Shown here in pieces: positions 24,801 to 32,974 of a stretch of 64,000 nt of DNA. The stretch is taken from the NCBI RefSeq assembly GCF_007859935.1, contig NZ_SJPO01000012.1, positions 124,001 to 188,000 on the forward strand, written 5' to 3'. Under the pieces are notes generated by a model that made no database searches, was not told where the DNA came from, and saw only the letters and a program-made list of their open reading frames with translations. How positions within the stretch are numbered: position 1 is the first letter of the stretch; every line of letters begins with the position of its first letter. The position numbers were made by a program, and so were the translations under genes. Source of the stretch: Posidoniimonas polymericola. Its GTDB lineage: Bacteria > Planctomycetota > Planctomycetia > Pirellulales > Lacipirellulaceae.

Positions 24801-26303
<1,503 letters not shown>

Positions 26304-26413
26304 AGCGGGCGTGTTGCGTGGGCTCGTCGAGTGGGTCTGGTGTCCGGGATCCGTCTCGGAGAATCCAGTAGTTTAGCAGTTTACAGCGAGGGGCTCGATG
26401 GGCGCCGGCGGGG

Positions 26414-26460
26414 CGACTTTTGTCCCTTATTCGCGCATCCATTTATAGGGACAAAAGTCG
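26414..26460. repeat. Inverted repeat CGACTTTTGTCCC / GGGACAAAAGTCG
   Basis: Perfect 13-bp arms (26414-26426 and 26448-26460) flank a 21-base AT-rich spacer. A second, imperfect copy lies at 26539-26579. Both are in the gap between a CrtI-like gene and the RAYT repeat island. The symmetry resembles a palindromic mobile repeat or transposon-end remnant. Confidence 0.8.
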
Positions 26461-26538
26461 GGCTCTGCAGCGGCCCCTGAAGTGCGTCCCACGCTTGTAT
26501 AGCAGCGTCTTCGTCACATTGGGCGACTCGTCCGACGG

Positions 26539-26579
26539 CGACTTTTGTCCGTATTTGCACACTGCAGGGGACAATAGTC
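26539..26579. repeat. Degenerate second copy of the CGACTTTTGTCC inverted repeat
   Basis: CGACTTTTGTCC (26539-26550) faces GGACAATAGTC (26569-26579), which has one internal mismatch. The spacing is about 18 bases. It belongs to the same element family as 26414-26460. Confidence 0.65.
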
Positions 26580-26701
26580 CGGGTTGAGGAAAAGACTAGC
26601 GGCAGAACCCGCAGCCACCCCTTGTATACCGCCGTGGGTGGCTCTTTGCGATCTAAAACGGAGCGGAGAATCGAGAGAGTGGGGCCCGAATCGGAATCTT
26701 G

Positions 26702-27111
26702 CATGGGGCATTGCCCAGGGCTGTGATAGCGCCCCGTTGGGGCTTTGATCCGCTGGCGACGACAACCGGAACGCGGGGCCCATTCCTTGGCCTGAAGGGC
26801 CAATCTACTGCAGCCCAGGGCATCGCCCTGGGTTGCCGACCGGGTTCAACCAATAAAACCCTGAACGGACGCGCTAATCCCAACCGCAGAACTAGCGCGT
26901 CCCGTTGGGACTCTCTGGACCCTTGGCGTCCGCCATCCCAGGGAGTTGCCCTGGGCTATGATAGCGCGCCCCGTTGGGGCTGTTGTTCGCTGGCGACGCC
27001 AACCGGCGTGCAAGTCCGCAAGCCTTGGGCTGAAAGGCCAACCTACTACAGCCCAGGGCATCGCCCTGGGTTAGAGACCGGGTTTAACTATCGAAGCCCT
27101 GAAGGGGCGCG
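26702..27111. repeat. Tandem palindromic repeat array, left part (RAYT-associated BIME-like)
   Basis: A partial unit (26702-26810), a full unit (26811-27048) and the start of a third (27049 on) repeat with a period of about 238 bp. Each unit carries CAGCCCAGGGCATCGCCCTG, then CCGGGTTCAACC-type DNA, a GCGCGCTA/TAGCGCG stem, CCGTTGGGAC, a second CCCAGGG...CCCTGGG palindrome, GCGCGCCCCGTTGGGGC, and AACCGGCGTGCAAG. The nested palindromes are typical of REP/BIME elements mobilised by RAYT transposases. The array continues after the RAYT gene. Confidence 0.88.
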
Positions 27112-27564
27112 CTATTCCCACACGTAGCGTTCGTCGAACTCAATGCCGTACCGCTCCAACAACGTCCGGTACTCTTCCTGGAATGACGCCTGACGATGAT
27201 GTTCGCGCTGTCCCTCGATGTACCGCACCAAAGCCGGCAATTGGCTGGCGCCAACCGAGAAGGCGCCATATCCGTTCTGCCACGCGAACGCCTGGTAGGT
27301 TTCGCCCCTGGTCTTCACCCATTTCGACGAGTCTTGCTTGATACCTTGCACCAAGTCGGCCACCGAGACGGTGCGTCCCAGCCGGCACGCCAGATGAACG
27401 TGATCGTCAACGCCGCCCACCTTAATCGCCGGCGCCCCCATCGACCGGCAGGCCTTCGCCAGGTAGGCGTGCATCTCCGCTTCGATTCCCTGGTCGATCC
27501 AAGCGCGGCGATGCTTTGTCGAGAAGACGAGATGCACCAGAACGTTGGATAGCGACTGAGCCAT
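27112..27564 (-). CDS. REP-associated tyrosine transposase (RAYT, IS200-like TnpA_REP)
   Basis: A 150-residue Y1 HUH nuclease. The metal-binding HUH pair is His55-X-His57 in VDDHVHLAC, the RAYT hallmark FAWQNGYGAFSV is at residues about 92-103, and the likely catalytic Tyr is Tyr115 in VRYIEGQREHHRQ. RAYTs act on single-stranded REP palindromes. The gene is bounded on both sides by about 235-bp palindromic repeat units, and its last codons and stop (27112-27114) lie inside the repeat stem sequence GCGCGCTA. It therefore occupies the loop position of a repeat unit. All motifs are intact, so it is probably active or recently so. Confidence 0.92.
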   Translation of the reverse strand: MAQSLSNVLVHLVFSTKHRRAWIDQGIEAEMHAYLAKACRSMGAPAIKVGGVDDHVHLACRLGRTVSVADLVQGIKQDSSKWVKTRGETYQAFAWQNGYGAFSVGASQLPALVRYIEGQREHHRQASFQEEYRTLLERYGIEFDERYVWE

Positions 27565-27611
27565 GAATTGATCCCCAGGCGAGGCATGCGGCGAACCGTT
27601 TCATGGTAGTC

Positions 27612-27916
27612 AGCGTAGCGTGTGCCGTTGGGACTTTTTTCACACTTAGGCGACCGACCTCCCAGGGCGTTGCCCTGGGTTACCGACCGGGTTCAACCAA
27701 CAAAGCCCTGAAGGGGCGCGCTAATCCAAGGCATCTTAGCGCGTCCCGTTGGGACTTCTTGATTTCATGGCGTCCGCGTACCCAGGGCGTTGCCCTGGGC
27801 TGTGACAGCGCGCCCCGTTGGGGCTGTTGATCGCTGGCGAAGCGAACCGGCGTGCAAGACCGCAAGCCTTGGCCTGAAGGGCCAACCTAATACAGCCCAG
27901 GGCATCGCCCTGGGTT
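27612..27916. repeat. Tandem palindromic repeat array, right part
   Basis: The end of the RAYT-bearing unit (27612-27660), one full unit (27661-27892) and a terminal CAGCCCAGGGCATCGCCCTG palindrome (27893-27916). The sequence closely follows the left array, including the TAGCGCG...CCGTTGGGAC junction and the AACCGGCGTGCAAG box. The array ends just after the stop of the next gene (27924). Confidence 0.88.
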
Positions 27917-27923
27917 GTCTGGG

Positions 27924-28961
27924 TCACCTTATGTCTTGAACCTCCCCATCCGCACGATGCCCCATCCGCCGGAAGGCCTCGGCGTCGACGTCGTACGCCA
28001 CGAGCCGGGCGGAGCCGTCGCACCAGGAGAGGATGACGCCCGCGTCGTGGGCGCTGCCGAACAACTCACGCGGCAGCGTCTGCTGCAGCGAGGTGACGCC
28101 CGGCAGGGTGCGGAAGTCGGTGGAGTCGTGCCGCGGCATGTGGGTCGGGGTGACGCCGTCGTAGTAGGTGGAGCGGACGATGTCGTCCTGGAAGCCTGCG
28201 AGCATGCACCAGTCGTCGGCCAGCCAGAATTCGTCCCCCGCGTAGACCTCGACCGGCACCCACCGCTCCCCAAGGGCGATCGTCTTGGAGAGGCCGTCGG
28301 TGATCATGCGGGCGGGGACCGCGCGGCCGCAGTACGAGACCCCGCTGAACTCGCTCGCCGGCGGAGGGAAGTCGTCCCGCACCTCGTCGTACGCGCGGGG
28401 GCTGATCTGCAGGCAGCGGCCATCGAAACCCGTCTGGTCACCGGCGGAGATCGCGTAGTCGGAGCGGGCGGTGAGCGGCGGGTCGTAGCTGAGCACCCCG
28501 CCCTGGCCGTCGCCACAGATCGAGTCCTGCCTGATCCGCTTATCGTAGGGCCCGCCGTCGCGACGCGTCGGGCAGTTGGCGATCGAGATCGTTAGCGCGT
28601 CGCGGCGATTGAGCGCCGTGACGCGTTCGGCGCCGGCCAAGCCCTTGCCCATCGCCGAGATGGCGCCGTCCTCGACGTAGGGCGCGACAGCGAAGAACCA
28701 CCCGCCGGGCTGTTCGGCCCCGACGCCGCGGTCGGGGTCGCCGGTCCAGTTGCCCGCCCACCCGGAGGACGGGTACCGCGCGTGCGCCGACTCGAAGTTG
28801 GTAAGTGCGAGCGTCAGGTTCTTGAGGTTGCTCAGGCACTGGGTACGCCGGGCCGCCTCGCGGGCCGACTGCACCGCCGGCAGCAGCGGAGCGACCAGCA
28901 CGCCGATGATCGCAATCACTACGAGGAGTTCGACCAGGGTGAACGCGGAACGCCGTGCCAT
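27924..28961 (-). CDS. DUF1559 pseudopilin-type protein
   Basis: A 345-residue DUF1559 protein with the leader [19 protein letters not shown], where the residue before the FTLVE cleavage site is Ala instead of the usual Gly, a tolerated variant. The conserved [20 protein letters not shown] follows. The C-terminal H-X9-DG element appears around [19 protein letters not shown]. The ATG at 28961 is preferred over 28991 because it starts at the leader and overlaps the upstream stop (TAATG), so it is translationally coupled to the preceding membrane protein. Function is unknown; the family forms surface pseudopilins. It belongs to the island that splits the lipid cluster. Confidence 0.85.
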
Positions 28962-29707
28962 TACTCCTCCGGCGGCTTTGAGACGATCCACAACGCCACC
29001 CCATCGGTGGGTGGCGTGTCGGGCATGGAGTAACTCTTTACTCCATTAGCTAGGTTCTCTGAGTGAACAAATCGCCGGTTCAGCAGCACCAGCTGATCGC
29101 CCGGCTCACGCTCGACCGATGTGGCTTGCACCTCGGTGCCGAGGCTGAGCAGCCGCCCGTCCTTGTCGAGCGGCCACTGATCGGGTGTCGCGTGGATTTC
29201 GGCGCTGACGGTATGTTCGCCGCTCCGAGGTGCGGCCTTCATCGAAGAGCTGCTGCTTGCCGAGGGCTTGATACTGAGACCATAGGCCGCATCTCCGCTT
29301 GGCCTCTGCCAGGTTGAGAGCGTGATCAGCCACTCGCCTGGGGAAAGACCAGTAGCGAGGATCTGGTGGTCAAAGCCGTGGCTCGTGTCGGCGTTCGGAA
29401 AGATGGGTAGCGGGCTCACGCCGCTTTCCGGTAGCTCGTTCACCTGCACGGCGACGCCGTAATGACCGCCGGGCGGCAAGTAAATCCGCCACGTCCAGTC
29501 ACTATTGAACCGCCGCGGCCGCTGGATCGCCTGGATCTTGGTCGGGTCGTCGATGTTGAGCACGCCGGCTTCTTGACGCAACCGCCGAACCTCTTCCCTT
29601 AGTGGCGCCAGGCGGACGATTACTAAGCCCATGACCACGACGGTGGCGAACAACAAGAGGTTCAACAGCGAGAAGCGGAACCGCCATGGTGGGGGCGTGT
29701 GGGACAT
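28961..29707 (-). CDS. Single-pass membrane protein of unknown function
   Basis: A 248-residue protein with one N-terminal transmembrane helix ([20 protein letters not shown], residues about 11-30), a short coiled-coil-like stretch ([11 protein letters not shown]), and a predicted periplasmic beta-rich domain with no recognised signature. The FSLLNLLL-type start is frequent in planctomycete membrane proteins. The ATG at 29707 is chosen; the frame extends upstream to 29776 without a helix. Its stop overlaps the DUF1559 start, so the two proteins are probably made together and may form an envelope complex. Function is unknown. Confidence 0.7.
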
Positions 29708-29730
29708 GCGGCAATTGTAGCAGGCGCGGG

Positions 29731-29800
29731 GAAACGAGTCCTGTTGGGACTCTTTGCCGTTATGGCGACCGAACACCCTAGGCGTAGCCCTCGGTCGCGT
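29731..29800. repeat. Degenerate outlier of the RAYT repeat family
   Basis: CCTGTTGGGACTCTTTGCCG, then a GGCGACCGA stretch and ACCCTAGGCGTAGCCCTCGGT, parallels the CCGTTGGGACT...GGCGTCC...CCCAGGG order of the main array. It lies about 1.8 kb beyond the array, between the membrane-protein gene and the second CrtI-like gene. Confidence 0.55.
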
Positions 29801-29810
29801 ATTGGTAGGA

Positions 29811-31202
29811 TCAATCCCGCAAACAGTGCATGTTCGCCATGCCGATGCCGCTGACGATGCTGCCGATAATGCCGACGAAGCCCTGGTCGGTGCCGCAGAT
29901 GAAGAGGTTGTCGAGGTGCGTCGCGCCGTCGAGCTGCTTCTCTGGCGCGCCGTACACGGCGCCGTTGTCGTGCCCGGTGAAGCGGACGATGGTGGTCGGG
30001 CTGAACATGTCGGTGTCGACCACTCGGGCGCGGTAGTCGGGGACGAACCTCACGGCGGAGTCGACAATGCGGTCGTACCAGCGGTGCTTGGCGAGCTGGT
30101 ACTCCTCATCGGAGAGGTTGTTCCACCAGTCGAAGTTGGCGAGCACCGTGATCCGCATCACGCCCTCTCCTAGGGAACCAGCGAGCGACTTGTCGTACTC
30201 GAAGTTGTTCGGGCTGCAGATCACGCCGCTCCGCAGGTCGCACGGATCAGCGGGCGGGGTCCAGTCGAATTCGGCGTGGTCATTGAAGAACGTGATCGTG
30301 CGGTCGTAGCCGAGCTGCTTCGGGTCGACGTCCAGCGTGCTGATGGTCTCGCAGAAGCTGAGCTTGCCGGGCGCGCGGGAGTCGACCACCGGCGCGCCGT
30401 CGTCGCAGAGCCGCATGGTCTCGAACCAACCGGCGGACGACAGCACGCGGCGGGCCTGAATCTGTGTGCCGTCCTCGAGCTCGACGCCCGCCACGCGACC
30501 TCCGTCGGTGATGATTCGCTTCACCCCGGCGCGGAGCTTGAGCTCGCCCCCCATCGCCTTGTACTTCTTGACCAGGTTCTTGAGGATCAGCCGCACGCCG
30601 GCGTGCGGGCGGCCCAGGCCCTCGAGGAAGATGCTGCGGAACATGATGCAGAACTGGCCCCAGTCCATGTCGTGCTCGCGGGCCGAGCCGTAGAACATCA
30701 GCGGGCAGAACAGCATCTCGACCAGAAGCGGCTCGGTCAGGTAGCTCGACACCACCTGGCGGGCGGACTGCTGCTGGTGCTCCTCGGAGAGGTCGTCGTA
30801 GTCGACGATCGCCTCGACGAAGCGGCGCCAGTTGTCGGCCTGGGCGGGGAACTCGCGGGCGACCTCGGCGGCCAAGAGCTCCGGGTCGTTGTCGAACTTG
30901 AGCCGCGCGCCGGGGAACACCACCTGCGAGCCGATCTGTGGCGAGATCTGGAAGTCGTCCCACGAGAAGCGGAGCTGACGCAGCAGCCGGGCGAGCGGCC
31001 CCTTGCGGGCGCCCTTGGGCGTGATGTTGGTCAGCGCGTGCAGGCCGACGTCGTAGTCGCGGCCGCGGAGGCGGTAGAAGCTGTTGAGACCGCCGATGGT
31101 CCAGTGCTTCTCAACGATCAGCACCCGCTGCTCGTACATCGCCAGCCGGATGCCGGCCGCCAGCCCGCTCATCCCGGCGCCGATGATGAGGGTGTCGTAC
31201 AT
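29811..31202 (-). CDS. Phytoene desaturase/CrtI-like FAD oxidoreductase (2)
   Basis: A 463-residue flavoprotein starting MYDTLIIGAGMSGLAAGIRL, the Rossmann FAD motif, followed by IVEKHWTIGGLNSFY. The C-terminal FAD-binding part contains LFICGTDQGFVGIIGSIVSG. It has the CrtI/retinol-saturase architecture and is a distant paralogue of the 24.8-26.3 kb gene. The ACP and ketosynthase genes lie immediately upstream on the same strand (175 and 530 bp). A role on an ACP-linked acyl or polyene chain is inferred from context. No transmembrane helix is evident. Confidence 0.88.
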   Translation of the reverse strand: MYDTLIIGAGMSGLAAGIRLAMYEQRVLIVEKHWTIGGLNSFYRLRGRDYDVGLHALTNITPKGARKGPLARLLRQLRFSWDDFQISPQIGSQVVFPGARLKFDNDPELLAAEVAREFPAQADNWRRFVEAIVDYDDLSEEHQQQSARQVVSSYLTEPLLVEMLFCPLMFYGSAREHDMDWGQFCIMFRSIFLEGLGRPHAGVRLILKNLVKKYKAMGGELKLRAGVKRIITDGGRVAGVELEDGTQIQARRVLSSAGWFETMRLCDDGAPVVDSRAPGKLSFCETISTLDVDPKQLGYDRTITFFNDHAEFDWTPPADPCDLRSGVICSPNNFEYDKSLAGSLGEGVMRITVLANFDWWNNLSDEEYQLAKHRWYDRIVDSAVRFVPDYRARVVDTDMFSPTTIVRFTGHDNGAVYGAPEKQLDGATHLDNLFICGTDQGFVGIIGSIVSGIGMANMHCLRD

Positions 31203-31225
31203 GAGGTGAGGCAGGCGTTGAGAGT

Positions 31226-31341
31226 TCTTCCCTCCCTCTCAGGGAGGGTCGGGGGGAGGGTCGGGCGTTCAAGAGAGCGAAGCCCTCCTGTACTGCGAAC
31301 CTCTACCCTCCCCTAACCCCTCCCTGCGGGGGAGGGGGATA
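31226..31341. repeat. G/C-tract inverted repeat
   Basis: CCCTCCCTCTCAGGGAGGGT plus GGGGGGAGGGT at the left faces ACCCTCCCCTAACCCCTCCC and GGGGGAGGG at the right. Together they form a large imperfect palindrome of about 115 bp between the CrtI-like gene and the ACP gene. It resembles dispersed palindromic repeats rather than a terminator. Confidence 0.6.
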
Positions 31342-31377
31342 GCGCGGCCGGTGGCCGCGGAGACTAAACCGTCGCCG

Positions 31378-31629
31378 CTACAGGTTGACCATCATCGGTT
31401 CGAGGTAGGCGACCGTGCTGTCCATGCTGGCCAGGTTGACGTAGTCGTCCTCGGGGATCTGCACGCGGTGCCGCTTGCGGAGCTCCATGACGATATCGAG
31501 GAAGTCCATGGAGTCGAGCTCCATCTGCTCACGGAAGCTGACGTCGTCCTTCAGGCCGGACAGGTCCTCGTCCGGGGCGATGTCGGCGAGGATGTCGAGG
31601 ATCTCGTTGCGGATTTCTTCGCGGGTCAT
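31378..31629 (-). CDS. Acyl carrier protein
   Basis: An 83-residue acyl carrier protein. The phosphopantetheine-attachment Ser is in MELDSMDFLDIVMEL. The protein is acidic and helical as expected. It lies between the ketosynthase (100 bp upstream) and a CrtI-like gene. Its sequence (for example DDVSFREQMELDSMD) is more divergent than a housekeeping AcpP, and the FabG/FabD partners usual for AcpP are absent, so it is probably a dedicated carrier for this pathway. A phosphopantetheinyl transferase is not in the window. Confidence 0.9.
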   Translation of the reverse strand: MTREEIRNEILDILADIAPDEDLSGLKDDVSFREQMELDSMDFLDIVMELRKRHRVQIPEDDYVNLASMDSTVAYLEPMMVNL

Positions 31630-31640
31630 GAGTTGGGCTC

Positions 31641-31719
31641 TTGGCTGTTAGCTATTGGCCGTTGGCTTCGGCTACCGCGGCGTGACCCTGTGAGCCAACA
31701 GCCGATAGCTAACAGCCGA
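31641..31719. repeat. Large inverted repeat between ACP and ketosynthase genes
   Basis: Two 27-bp arms (31641-31667 and 31693-31719) match in inverted orientation with three mismatches. The core is GCTGTTAGCTAT. The spacer is 25 bp. It fills the whole gap between the two genes and would form a strong hairpin in the shared transcript. Confidence 0.85.
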
Positions 31720-31729
31720 CGGCTCCTGG

Positions 31730-32974
31730 TCACACTTTGTTGATAATCACGACGGAGTTGATTCCAAGCATGCCGAACGAGTTGTTCAGCACGCTGGTCA
31801 CCCCGCTGGTTTCGAAAGGCTCGTTGAGGACTAGCCCGGGGACGTCGCACTTGGGGTCGAGGTCCTCGACATTGATTGTCGGGTGCACGACGCCGTCAGT
31901 AAACGACGGGAGGTTGCCAGCCAGCTCGAGGGCGCCGGCGGCGCCCATCGCGTGGCCGATGAAGCTCTTGGTGTTGTTGATGCGGGTCGACTGGCACTCG
32001 CCGAACACGGCCCGCAGCGCGGTGCACTCCTGGATGTCGCCGCTCTCGGTGGCCGTGGCGTGCGTGCTGACGATGCCGATCTGGTCGGCGTTCATGCGGG
32101 CGCGGCCGAGGGCCATCTCGACGCAGCGGGCCTGCTGCTTGGGGTTGGGCAGCACGAAGTCGCTGGCGTCGGAGTTCATGGCGTAGCCGGCGATCTCGCC
32201 GTAGATCCGCGCGCCACGTTGGGCGGCGTCCTCGTACCGCTCGAGGGTGTACAGGCAGCCCCCCTCGGAGACCACGATGCCGTTGCGGCCCTTGTCGAAC
32301 GGCCGCGAGGCGCGGGTCGGGTCCTCGTTGGCGGCCAGCGCGCCCTGGCTGGCGAAGCCGGCGAAGATGCCGAACGTGTGGATGCTCTCGGACACGCCGC
32401 CGCAGATCGCGACGTCGCACTCGCCGAGCCGCAGCATCTGCGCGGCCTGGATCAGCCCGGCGTTGCCTGCCGCGCACGCCGCGCCAATAGTGTAGTGCGG
32501 GCCGGTGATGCCCATGTTGAGCGTGATCTCGCCCGCGGGGTTGTTGGCGACCGTCCGCGGGTTGTGGTGGTGCGACCAGACGCTGGTGTCGTAGTCGTAG
32601 GACTTGATCTCGTTGATCTCGTTCTCGGTCTCGACGTTGCCGTGCTCGGTCACCCCGATGTAGACGCCCACCCGTTCGGGGTCAACGTTCGGCCAGTCGA
32701 GGCCCGAGTCGTTCACGGCTTCGTTGGCGCAGTAGATGCCGATGCTGCCAGCGCGGGTGCCGCGGCGGACGTTGCGGCGGCTCTGGTGCTTGGTCTCGTC
32801 AAAATCGCAAACGCCGGCCAGCGTCTTGCCGACGTAGCGGATCTCGTAGTCGCGTACGCCGCTGCGGCCCTCGAGCAGCGCGGCGCGGTACTCGGCCAGC
32901 GAGTTGCCGTTGGGCGCGGTGAGGCCGATGCCGGTGATGACGATCCGATCGGTGGGCGATGCGGTGCTAATCAT
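31730..32974 (-). CDS. Beta-ketoacyl-ACP synthase (KAS I/II family)
   Basis: A 414-residue condensing enzyme with the Cys-His-His triad. The nucleophile is in TIGAACAAGNAGL (the family usually reads TACAT/SG), the first His in STHATATESGD (usually NAHGTST), and the second in NNTKSFIGHAMGAAGALEL. The motif deviations (Ala after His, AACAAG around Cys) set it apart from housekeeping FabF and suggest a specialised KS. It elongates acyl chains on an ACP. It starts the minus-strand series KS-ACP-CrtI. No chain-length-factor partner (decarboxylase-type KS lacking Cys) is adjacent, so it is not a typical aromatic type II PKS pair. Confidence 0.9.
   Translation of the reverse strand: MISTASPTDRIVITGIGLTAPNGNSLAEYRAALLEGRSGVRDYEIRYVGKTLAGVCDFDETKHQSRRNVRRGTRAGSIGIYCANEAVNDSGLDWPNVDPERVGVYIGVTEHGNVETENEINEIKSYDYDTSVWSHHHNPRTVANNPAGEITLNMGITGPHYTIGAACAAGNAGLIQAAQMLRLGECDVAICGGVSESIHTFGIFAGFASQGALAANEDPTRASRPFDKGRNGIVVSEGGCLYTLERYEDAAQRGARIYGEIAGYAMNSDASDFVLPNPKQQARCVEMALGRARMNADQIGIVSTHATATESGDIQECTALRAVFGECQSTRINNTKSFIGHAMGAAGALELAGNLPSFTDGVVHPTINVEDLDPKCDVPGLVLNEPFETSGVTSVLNNSFGMLGINSVVIINKV

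Follow-up and report, generated by a model that had tools for sequence, protein, structure and literature searches.

A class 1 (subclass 1.2-like) Y1 transposase gene between mirrored hairpin arms in Posidoniimonas polymericola, a likely REPtron-like system with gene-less units in related genomes

In Posidoniimonas polymericola a transposase gene lies between mirrored arms that each carry three hairpins in the order H1-H2-H3. Dyads built from the same arms, but without a gene, are dispersed both in this genome and in those of relatives. We consider it likely that a Y1 transposase of class 1 (subclass 1.2-like) operates a REPtron-like system here, with the gene-less units as its non-autonomous members. 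Judged from sequence, the system is REPtron-like and has REPIN-like dimers, yet its enzyme is of class 1 and lacks the motif of RAYTs.

The array is found at 26702-27916 of the stretch of DNA analyzed (64,000 nucleotides, here called the window), on contig 12 of the 6.26 Mb host genome (G000), and is made up of three palindromic units in tandem with a period of 237-238 bp. From the outside inwards each arm has H1, H2 (CCCAGGGCnnnGCCCTGGG), about 25-30 nt, H3 (AGCCCTGAAGGGGCGCGCTA or a variant) and the loop, after which H3', H2' and H1' follow in mirrored order. The loop of the middle unit houses the transposase gene, and the other two units have a loop of 13-16 nt instead. The initial annotation had described repeats on both sides of an intact HUH tyrosine transposase, and both parts of this were confirmed. 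The flanking repeats are homologous, as one pair (D2, 26893-27072 and 27737-27916) agrees at 88% over 180 nt and a 105-nt repeat (D1) is present in four copies at spacings of 238, 609 and 235, the other three copies being 61-82% like the reference. The transposase frame (27112-27564, minus strand, 150 aa) is intact and matches Pfam Y1_Tnp with E 4.9e-25. It occupies the position of the loop, just as had been proposed: the gene-bearing loop, which also contains a 51 nt leader, measures 501 nt, as compared to 16 nt (26877-26892) and 13 nt (27724-27736) in the gene-less units. The TAG stop codon (27112-27114) is indeed inside the stem, within the left stem half beside the gene, GCGCGCTA at 27107-27114. 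This left half was described correctly, but the right half, given as TAGCGCG, reads TAGCGTG(TGCC) at 27616-27622, and that stem is therefore decayed. The features are as follows.

26706-26744, no strand, left edge of the array, a truncated unit with a degenerate H2' and H1' (sequence; D4/D5 families)
26787-26981, no strand, gene-less unit 1 (hairpin order; fold z -4.26)
26787-26803, 26814-26832 and 26857-26876, H1, H2 and H3 in the left arm of gene-less unit 1; loop 26877-26892
26893-26912, 26937-26955 and 26962-26981, H3', H2' and H1' in the right arm of gene-less unit 1
27025-27041, plus strand, H1 hairpin in the left arm of the gene-bearing unit (sequence)
27052-27070, plus strand, H2 hairpin in the left arm of the gene-bearing unit, with outer foot ACAG
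27095-27114, plus strand, H3 of the gene-bearing unit (AGCCCTGAAGGGGCGCGCTA), which contains the stop codon of the gene
27112-27564, minus strand, Y1 HUH transposase gene, 150 aa, subclass 1.2-like (Pfam Y1_Tnp, NCBIfam transpos_IS200)
27565-27615, minus strand, leader in the loop, from the start codon to the right H3' half (sequence)
27616-27635, plus strand, H3' of the gene-bearing unit, decayed (TAGCGTGTGCCGTTGGGACT)
27661-27679, plus strand, apparent fused H2'/H2, whose outer foot is not AG (flank comparison)
27661-27825, no strand, gene-less unit 3 (hairpin order; fold z -6.38)
27661-27679 (fused) and 27704-27723, H2 and H3 of gene-less unit 3; loop 27724-27736
27737-27756, 27781-27799 and 27806-27825, H3', H2' and H1' in the right arm of gene-less unit 3
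27869-27914, no strand, right edge of the array, a truncated unit with H1 and H2

The left side of the hairpin at 27661-27679 reads like the right arm belonging to the gene-bearing unit, and its right side like the left arm of the unit that follows. Apparently two neighbouring hairpins have been fused here, and the segment H1'-spacer-H1 (~115 nt) therefore seems to be missing on that side. With a decayed H3' and a fused H2'/H2, the gene-bearing unit is not intact as a palindrome. The idea that the units fold as single strands was borne out for the two gene-less stretches, which fold better than shuffles (26702-26958, z -4.26; 27657-27916, z -6.38), but not for the whole gene-bearing unit, where the fold was no better than shuffles (z -0.56). 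Next to the array, at 26412-26580, there are inverted motifs (GACTTTTGTCCC / GGGACAAAAGTCG) that are unrelated to the units; similar motifs are also seen in the corresponding spacer of G001 (L078) and in L053. The region 24801-32974 carries two genes for FAD-dependent oxidoreductases, an acyl-carrier-like protein and a ketosynthase-like gene; the first oxidoreductase was named from Pfam and the other three by eye from their translations.

The protein was also recognized by the NCBIfam model for IS200/IS605 transposases (transpos_IS200, NF033573) with 66.7 bits at a cutoff of 55, and at E 0.01 the scan gave no NCBIfam model besides IS200. Its motifs DHVH, WQ and YIEGQREHH and its length of 150 aa are those of subclass 1.2 TnpAY1, for which Table 1 of Quentin et al. 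(PMC6006769) gives Y---Q--HH, DH[VI]H, WQ and ~148 aa. The same motifs are kept in the intact relatives, with Y---Q--HH in 115/121, [DN]HxH in 119/121 and WQ in 121/121, and the class 2 motif Y---NP was seen neither in the window protein nor in any of these 121. These counts, and the gene tree below, exclude the 6 of 130 sampled loci that lack an intact frame of 140 aa or more (stops in five of them), which were kept in the flank counts. Subclass 1.2 is also characterized by a C-terminal domain of its own, ~30 residues long; the C-terminal end that is conserved in 77 aligned sequences (...FDERYVW...) might correspond to it. The structure model built from the 77 sequences has a mean pLDDT of 89.7, and the folds closest to this predicted model are IS608, ISDra2 and other IS200-type TnpA (Z 12.8-13.6), with the REP transposase TnpAREP (4er8) less close (Z 9.9). 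The initial annotation had named the gene a RAYT. In the strict sense of class 2 TnpAREP, which carries Y---NP, this label had to be dropped, since the motif is YIEGQREHH and the protein is of class 1 and subclass 1.2-like. The class 2 foot GT[AG]G was likewise rejected: the window has ACAG on one side and a non-AG foot on the other, and in the family the foot is NNAG, which is GTAG in some loci. In the accessible text of PMC6006769 (2018), subclass 1.2 is placed near the IS200 transposases, as a group that has neither IS properties nor REPs (REP "no"), and is assigned to Cyanobacteria and Bacteroidetes.

One full-length family gene, one fragment at 51% and one match at 30% make up the family in the host genome. 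The fragment (L056, G000:C9:268152-268475), near the end of contig 9, is a broken second family gene with the C-terminal 108 residues at 51% identity, and it is flanked by CCTAGGGC hairpins. Two further Y1 genes, on contigs 6 (L010) and 4 (L012), are class 2-like with YVERNP and YVERNA. As these exist in the same genome, one of them could conceivably have moved the repeats in place of the subclass 1.2-like enzyme; a pattern search of 1.5 kb on each side of L010, L011, L012 and L014 gave no H2 hairpin, and we regard this explanation as highly improbable.

That the unit has further copies in the genome was confirmed. The H2 pattern CCCAGGGCnnnGCCCTGGG has 18 exact copies in the host genome, 5 of them within the array, and 0 for the reversed control; it was matched in 15/40 family genomes, the host included, with 0 for the reversed control in all 40. 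A second hairpin type, CCTAGGGC, has 13 copies in the host genome (control 0) and is present in 13/40 genomes. When up to 2 mismatches were allowed, the CCCAGGGC hairpin was found 51 times in the host genome against 5 in the control, with the 13 CCTAGGGC copies counted in. Outside the window, 21 gene-less dyads (from G000, G004, G006, G022 and G024) have an H2-H2 gap of 35-106 nt with a median of 94, and the hairpin order is kept, the inner part being absent or shortened in 3/21; the dyads of G006, G022 and G024 were picked where two hits sat close together. Two hairpins mirrored about a short spacer and dispersed in the genome are one mark of a REPIN, next to mobilisation by a cognate transposase, and the gene-less dyads have this form. 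The exact H3-loop-H3' pattern occurs in 6/20 genomes; in the host genome, where H3 has other letters, the count is 0.

The number of CCCAGGGC hairpins is associated with the type of gene present. Among 36 family genomes (G000-G035), with the gene list set by hand, at least 5 CCCAGGGC copies were found in 6/7 genomes with a sampled CCCAGGGC(3)-flanked gene vs. 2/29 others (Fisher p 9e-5), and at least one copy in 7/7 genomes with a CCCAGGGC-flanked gene vs. 6/29 others (p 2e-4). For CCTAGGGC the raw association (7/7 vs. 5/29 genomes) is partly circular, because some of the copies are the gene's own flanks, and with these removed by hand it is weak (4/7 vs. 5/29, p 0.05). The CCCAGGGC hairpin is also found in genomes without such a sampled gene, namely G022 (20), G004 (5), G008 (3), G018 (3), G034 (2) and G027 (1).

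The placement of the gene in the loop could be generalized in part. In 5/9 loci that were read fully (the window, G019, G003, G016 and G034) the gene is between H3 and H3', but in 4/9 (G024, G006, G012 and G031) its neighbour is a complete unit without a gene. The spacer between the two oxidoreductase genes was compared in 16 loci, and the gene is present in five of them (the window, G003, G016, G019 and G024), which by group codes span four genera. In the same spacer G004 has a complete gene-less unit, G021 a single hairpin, and G008 the left half H1-H2-H3 only, its contig ending 0.3 kb beyond; 8/16 are without H2. We considered G001, from the same genus, as an empty site and rejected it, as in its spacer there is different coding sequence and neither of the two H2 patterns (0 copies), which shows absence rather than excision. 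Both loss of the gene from the loop and gain of the gene fit this comparison. Taken together, and as far as sequence tells, the forms with and without the gene look like alternative states of a single element.

Signs of past movement were seen in several genomes. In G016 three gene-less units (L212, L216 and L219; two on the same contig at a distance of 14 kb and the third on another) align over ~300 bp with sharp ends and unrelated flanks. These units end with TGGTTCTTCAGGA and its complement, and one is without the inner right part. In a single verrucomicrobial MAG two loci, L130 and L137, have proteins that are 96.5% identical and a common stretch of 714 bp at 94.7%:

L130:1365-2078, repeated gene-bearing unit
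L137:1345-2056, repeated gene-bearing unit

The homology starts at TTCATACCAG before H2 and stops at CTGGTATGA after H2', i.e. its limits are about ten letters outside H2 on both sides, and the outer flanks are unrelated except for one 26-nt match. It looks as if the unit that carries the gene had its ends directly outside H2; a mixed bin is also possible. The H1 hairpins outside the common stretch differ and appear to be exchanged between the two sites. In another MAG, labelled Proteobacteria (JALHNO010000025.1), the genes L162 and L166 are in tandem ~2.9 kb apart with 100% identical proteins, inside a longer hairpin array. From these alignments we infer that transposition of units has taken place, as past dispersal. 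Within planctomycetes, 28 same-genome gene pairs from 13 genomes are 34-59% identical, so recent movement of the gene is exceptional there. The earlier suggestion that the gene travels as a variant of the repeat fits the dispersed gene-less copies and L130/L137, but the planctomycete pairs less well.

An ordinary IS200/IS605 element, with terminal hairpins, that moves with its gene and leaves decayed copies as gene-less units would agree with the NCBIfam IS200 score above cutoff, with IS608 and ISDra2 transposases as the nearest solved folds, and with the near-identical gene copies within a MAG (L130/L137 at 96.5%, the L162/L166 tandem at 100%). These last are exceptions: the several near-identical mobile copies expected of such an element are absent from the host genome, which has 18 H2 copies against one full-length gene, a fragment and a 30% match. 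The low identity of the planctomycete pairs, the mirrored arms and the presence of the gene in the same spacer in 5 genomes from 4 genera (group codes) all argue against this explanation as well, and we find it unlikely, if slightly less so in view of the near-identical gene copies within one MAG.

The flanks of relatives were compared in a sample of 130 loci, of which 50 are from related planctomycetes (30 picked by tool and 20 next-best chosen by hand) and the remainder are the 80 best-ranked among 184 loci of species genomes; since lower-ranked rows were left out, the sample leans to close relatives. Dropping two short-flank loci gave a set of 128, in which three duplicates remain. These duplicates, L163, L186 (Adhaeretor mobilis, G017) and L193 (Bythopirellula polymerisocia, G023), the latter two genomes both Lacipirellulaceae, Pirellulales according to NCBI, were removed from the hairpin position table and from the foot, H3, motif and tree counts. 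Both flanks carry a hairpin of 7 bp or more with one and the same stem in 61/128 loci, as compared to 0/640 in shuffles; swapped flanks also match (126/1272) because stem types are common to several loci. In the 122 loci of the hairpin position table, from which five without full 200-nt flanks were excluded, short-loop hairpins cluster far above shuffles, upstream at about -60 to -135 and downstream in the two ranges 0 to +15 and +45 to +120.

An AG foot on the outer side together with alike stems in both flanks was found in 46/127 loci against 0-2 for other dinucleotides, but this was noticed on the same loci before testing and is not an independent test. The GC count of 47 reflects the same hairpins shifted one base inward. 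The first two letters of the foot agree between the flanks in 35/46 loci, where permutation within stem types gave a mean of 22.1 and a maximum of 31 in 10,000; the sample has 14 upstream stem types and 8 upstream feet. By group, the AG-footed pair occurs in 22/50 of the first set, in Planctomycetota 8/15, Verrucomicrobiota 13/36, Lentisphaerota 1/2, Pseudomonadota 1/2 and Acidobacteriota 1/1, and it was found in 0/15 Bacteroidota and in none of the other 6 loci. In the 8-row clade around the window only 2/8 have the footed pair, and the strict hairpin tests in general miss over half of the loci (46/127, 50/126, 61/128). The AG foot was found on the outer side only. Hairpins gathered in intergenic DNA as host regulatory elements, such as terminators or mRNA stabilisers, and unlinked to the gene would account for the strong folding of the gene-less units. 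This one-sided foot, the sharp ends of the dispersed units and a CCCAGGGC copy number that goes with the presence of the cognate gene speak against such a role, to which we give very little credence.

With up to 4 mismatches, the H3 motif AGCCCTGAAAGGGCG upstream and its reverse complement downstream were found in 50/126 loci (a set with one further short-flank locus dropped), where the controls gave 3 for the wrong orientation, 0 reversed and 0 shuffled; the motif had been selected after reading the same flanks. In Bacteroidota 8/15 have the mirrored H3 pair, and the order H1-H2-H3 is visible in several of the 14 Bacteroidota flanks read, so the published "no REP" seems not to hold for this phylum. 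From the 46/127 footed pairs and the 50/126 mirrored H3 we take it that this entry for subclass 1.2 needs correcting. H3 and H2 are mirrored around the same gene family in several phyla, and the arrangement therefore looks old, which speaks against the earlier proposal that the repeat had captured the gene.

To relate the flanks to the enzyme we used a quick gene tree of 121 proteins with many weak branches. Labelling 44 rows by stem and by foot, on the upstream and on the downstream side, gave four labels that require 18-22 changes on this tree vs. shuffled means of 29-30, and for each label 0/200 shuffles were as low as observed. An example is G017, whose three genes have GTAG-CCTAGGGC, CTAG-CCCAGGCC and ATAG-CCCAGCGA, the same on both sides save one base. 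Where both flanks carry a footed H2 the stem is alike, the NNAG foot is mostly alike, and both track the gene tree. This bears on the possibility that the transposase inserted into a pre-existing palindromic repeat, the nesting being a target preference. Such insertion would explain the gene beside a complete unit in 4/9 loci and the different H1 hairpins outside the common stretch of L130 and L137, and ISPpu9 is reported in the accessible text of PMC8450116 to insert into REPs. Nevertheless, both flanks switch type together along the gene tree and the order H3-gene-H3' recurs in several phyla, and we judge insertion to be rather improbable.

The REPtron-like reading suggests a mechanism by analogy. 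According to the accessible text of PMC8266576, the cleavage site is selected in IS608, ISDra2 and, by proposal, REPtrons by four nucleotides located 5' of the palindrome; cleavage in one REPtron suffered most from mutations in the last two letters of this foot, and CT was the usual site. A foot in which AG is constant and the two preceding letters vary with lineage looks like such a guide. The TnpA may recognize the NNAG foot and the H2 hairpin in single-stranded DNA, like IS608 TnpA and TnpAREP, with the constant AG selecting a CT cleavage site beside NNAG-H2. The catalytic tyrosine would then cut and join, and thereby move units, in most cases gene-less dyads acted on in trans. The dyad itself could be the non-autonomous form that remains after loss of the gene from the loop. 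With H3' decayed and H2' fused, the copy in the window is probably immobile as a unit, although it may still supply the enzyme, and the tandem array possibly arose by recombination among many alike hairpins.

Several known systems share some of these properties. REPtrons, i.e. RAYTs with REPINs, have in common with this system mirrored hairpins, a foot 5' of the hairpin, dispersed cognate dimers and mostly single, divergent gene copies; they differ in being class 2 with Y---NP, whereas here the enzyme is class 1, there are three hairpins per arm, and the foot is NNAG with NN lineage-specific and GTAG as one state. IS200/IS605 elements (IS608, ISDra2) are alike in fold, in HUH and a single tyrosine, and in hairpin ends, and unlike in that here the arms are mirrored, most genomes seen have no recent gene copies and gene-less units outnumber genes in the host genome. 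Rhodopirellula baltica is also a planctomycete. Di Nocera et al. (2013, PMC3733652), in the accessible text, ascribe to it a wealth of tyrosine transposase genes and of flanking repeats. The same text covers the TIRtrons/TIRYTs, which are alike in that long inverted repeats, in part members of families found elsewhere, enclose a Y1 gene; 20/26 TIRYTs are assigned to subclass 2.1 in the accessible text of PMC6006769, unlike the subclass 1.2-like enzyme here. That text also describes TnpAY1 class 3, which resembles our system in its occurrence in Planctomycetes, Y----Q, atypical footed flanking structures and genomic copies, but has the foot CnGA, HuH NHVH and W[TA] in place of NNAG, DHVH and WQ. 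From subclass 1.2 as described there, without REP, our system differs in its REP-like flanks, its dispersed gene-less units and its occurrence mostly in Planctomycetota and Verrucomicrobiota. In the accessible parts of the open-licence literature, PMC6006769 and PMC3733652 link tyrosine transposases, REPs and these phyla; the four repeat strings have no mention in open-licence literature, which does not imply absence from print in general.

More broadly, and with slightly less than even confidence, we suggest that subclass 1.2 TnpA is a further REP-type lineage within class 1 across Planctomycetota, Verrucomicrobiota, Bacteroidota and others, in which foot and stem change together at both ends with the enzyme and both gene-bearing units and gene-less dyads move. 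Since neither IS properties nor REPs had been described for subclass 1.2, a REP-like partner would give it a role that a simple ssDNA cleavage assay can test. In this system transposase and palindrome would have evolved together outside class 2, and it may account for a palindromic repeat type in planctomycete and verrucomicrobial genomes. If this is true, the series of stems and feet would be a natural set for reading the recognition code, and the gene-less dyads would make up a class of non-autonomous repeats in Planctomycetota, Verrucomicrobiota, Bacteroidota and others.
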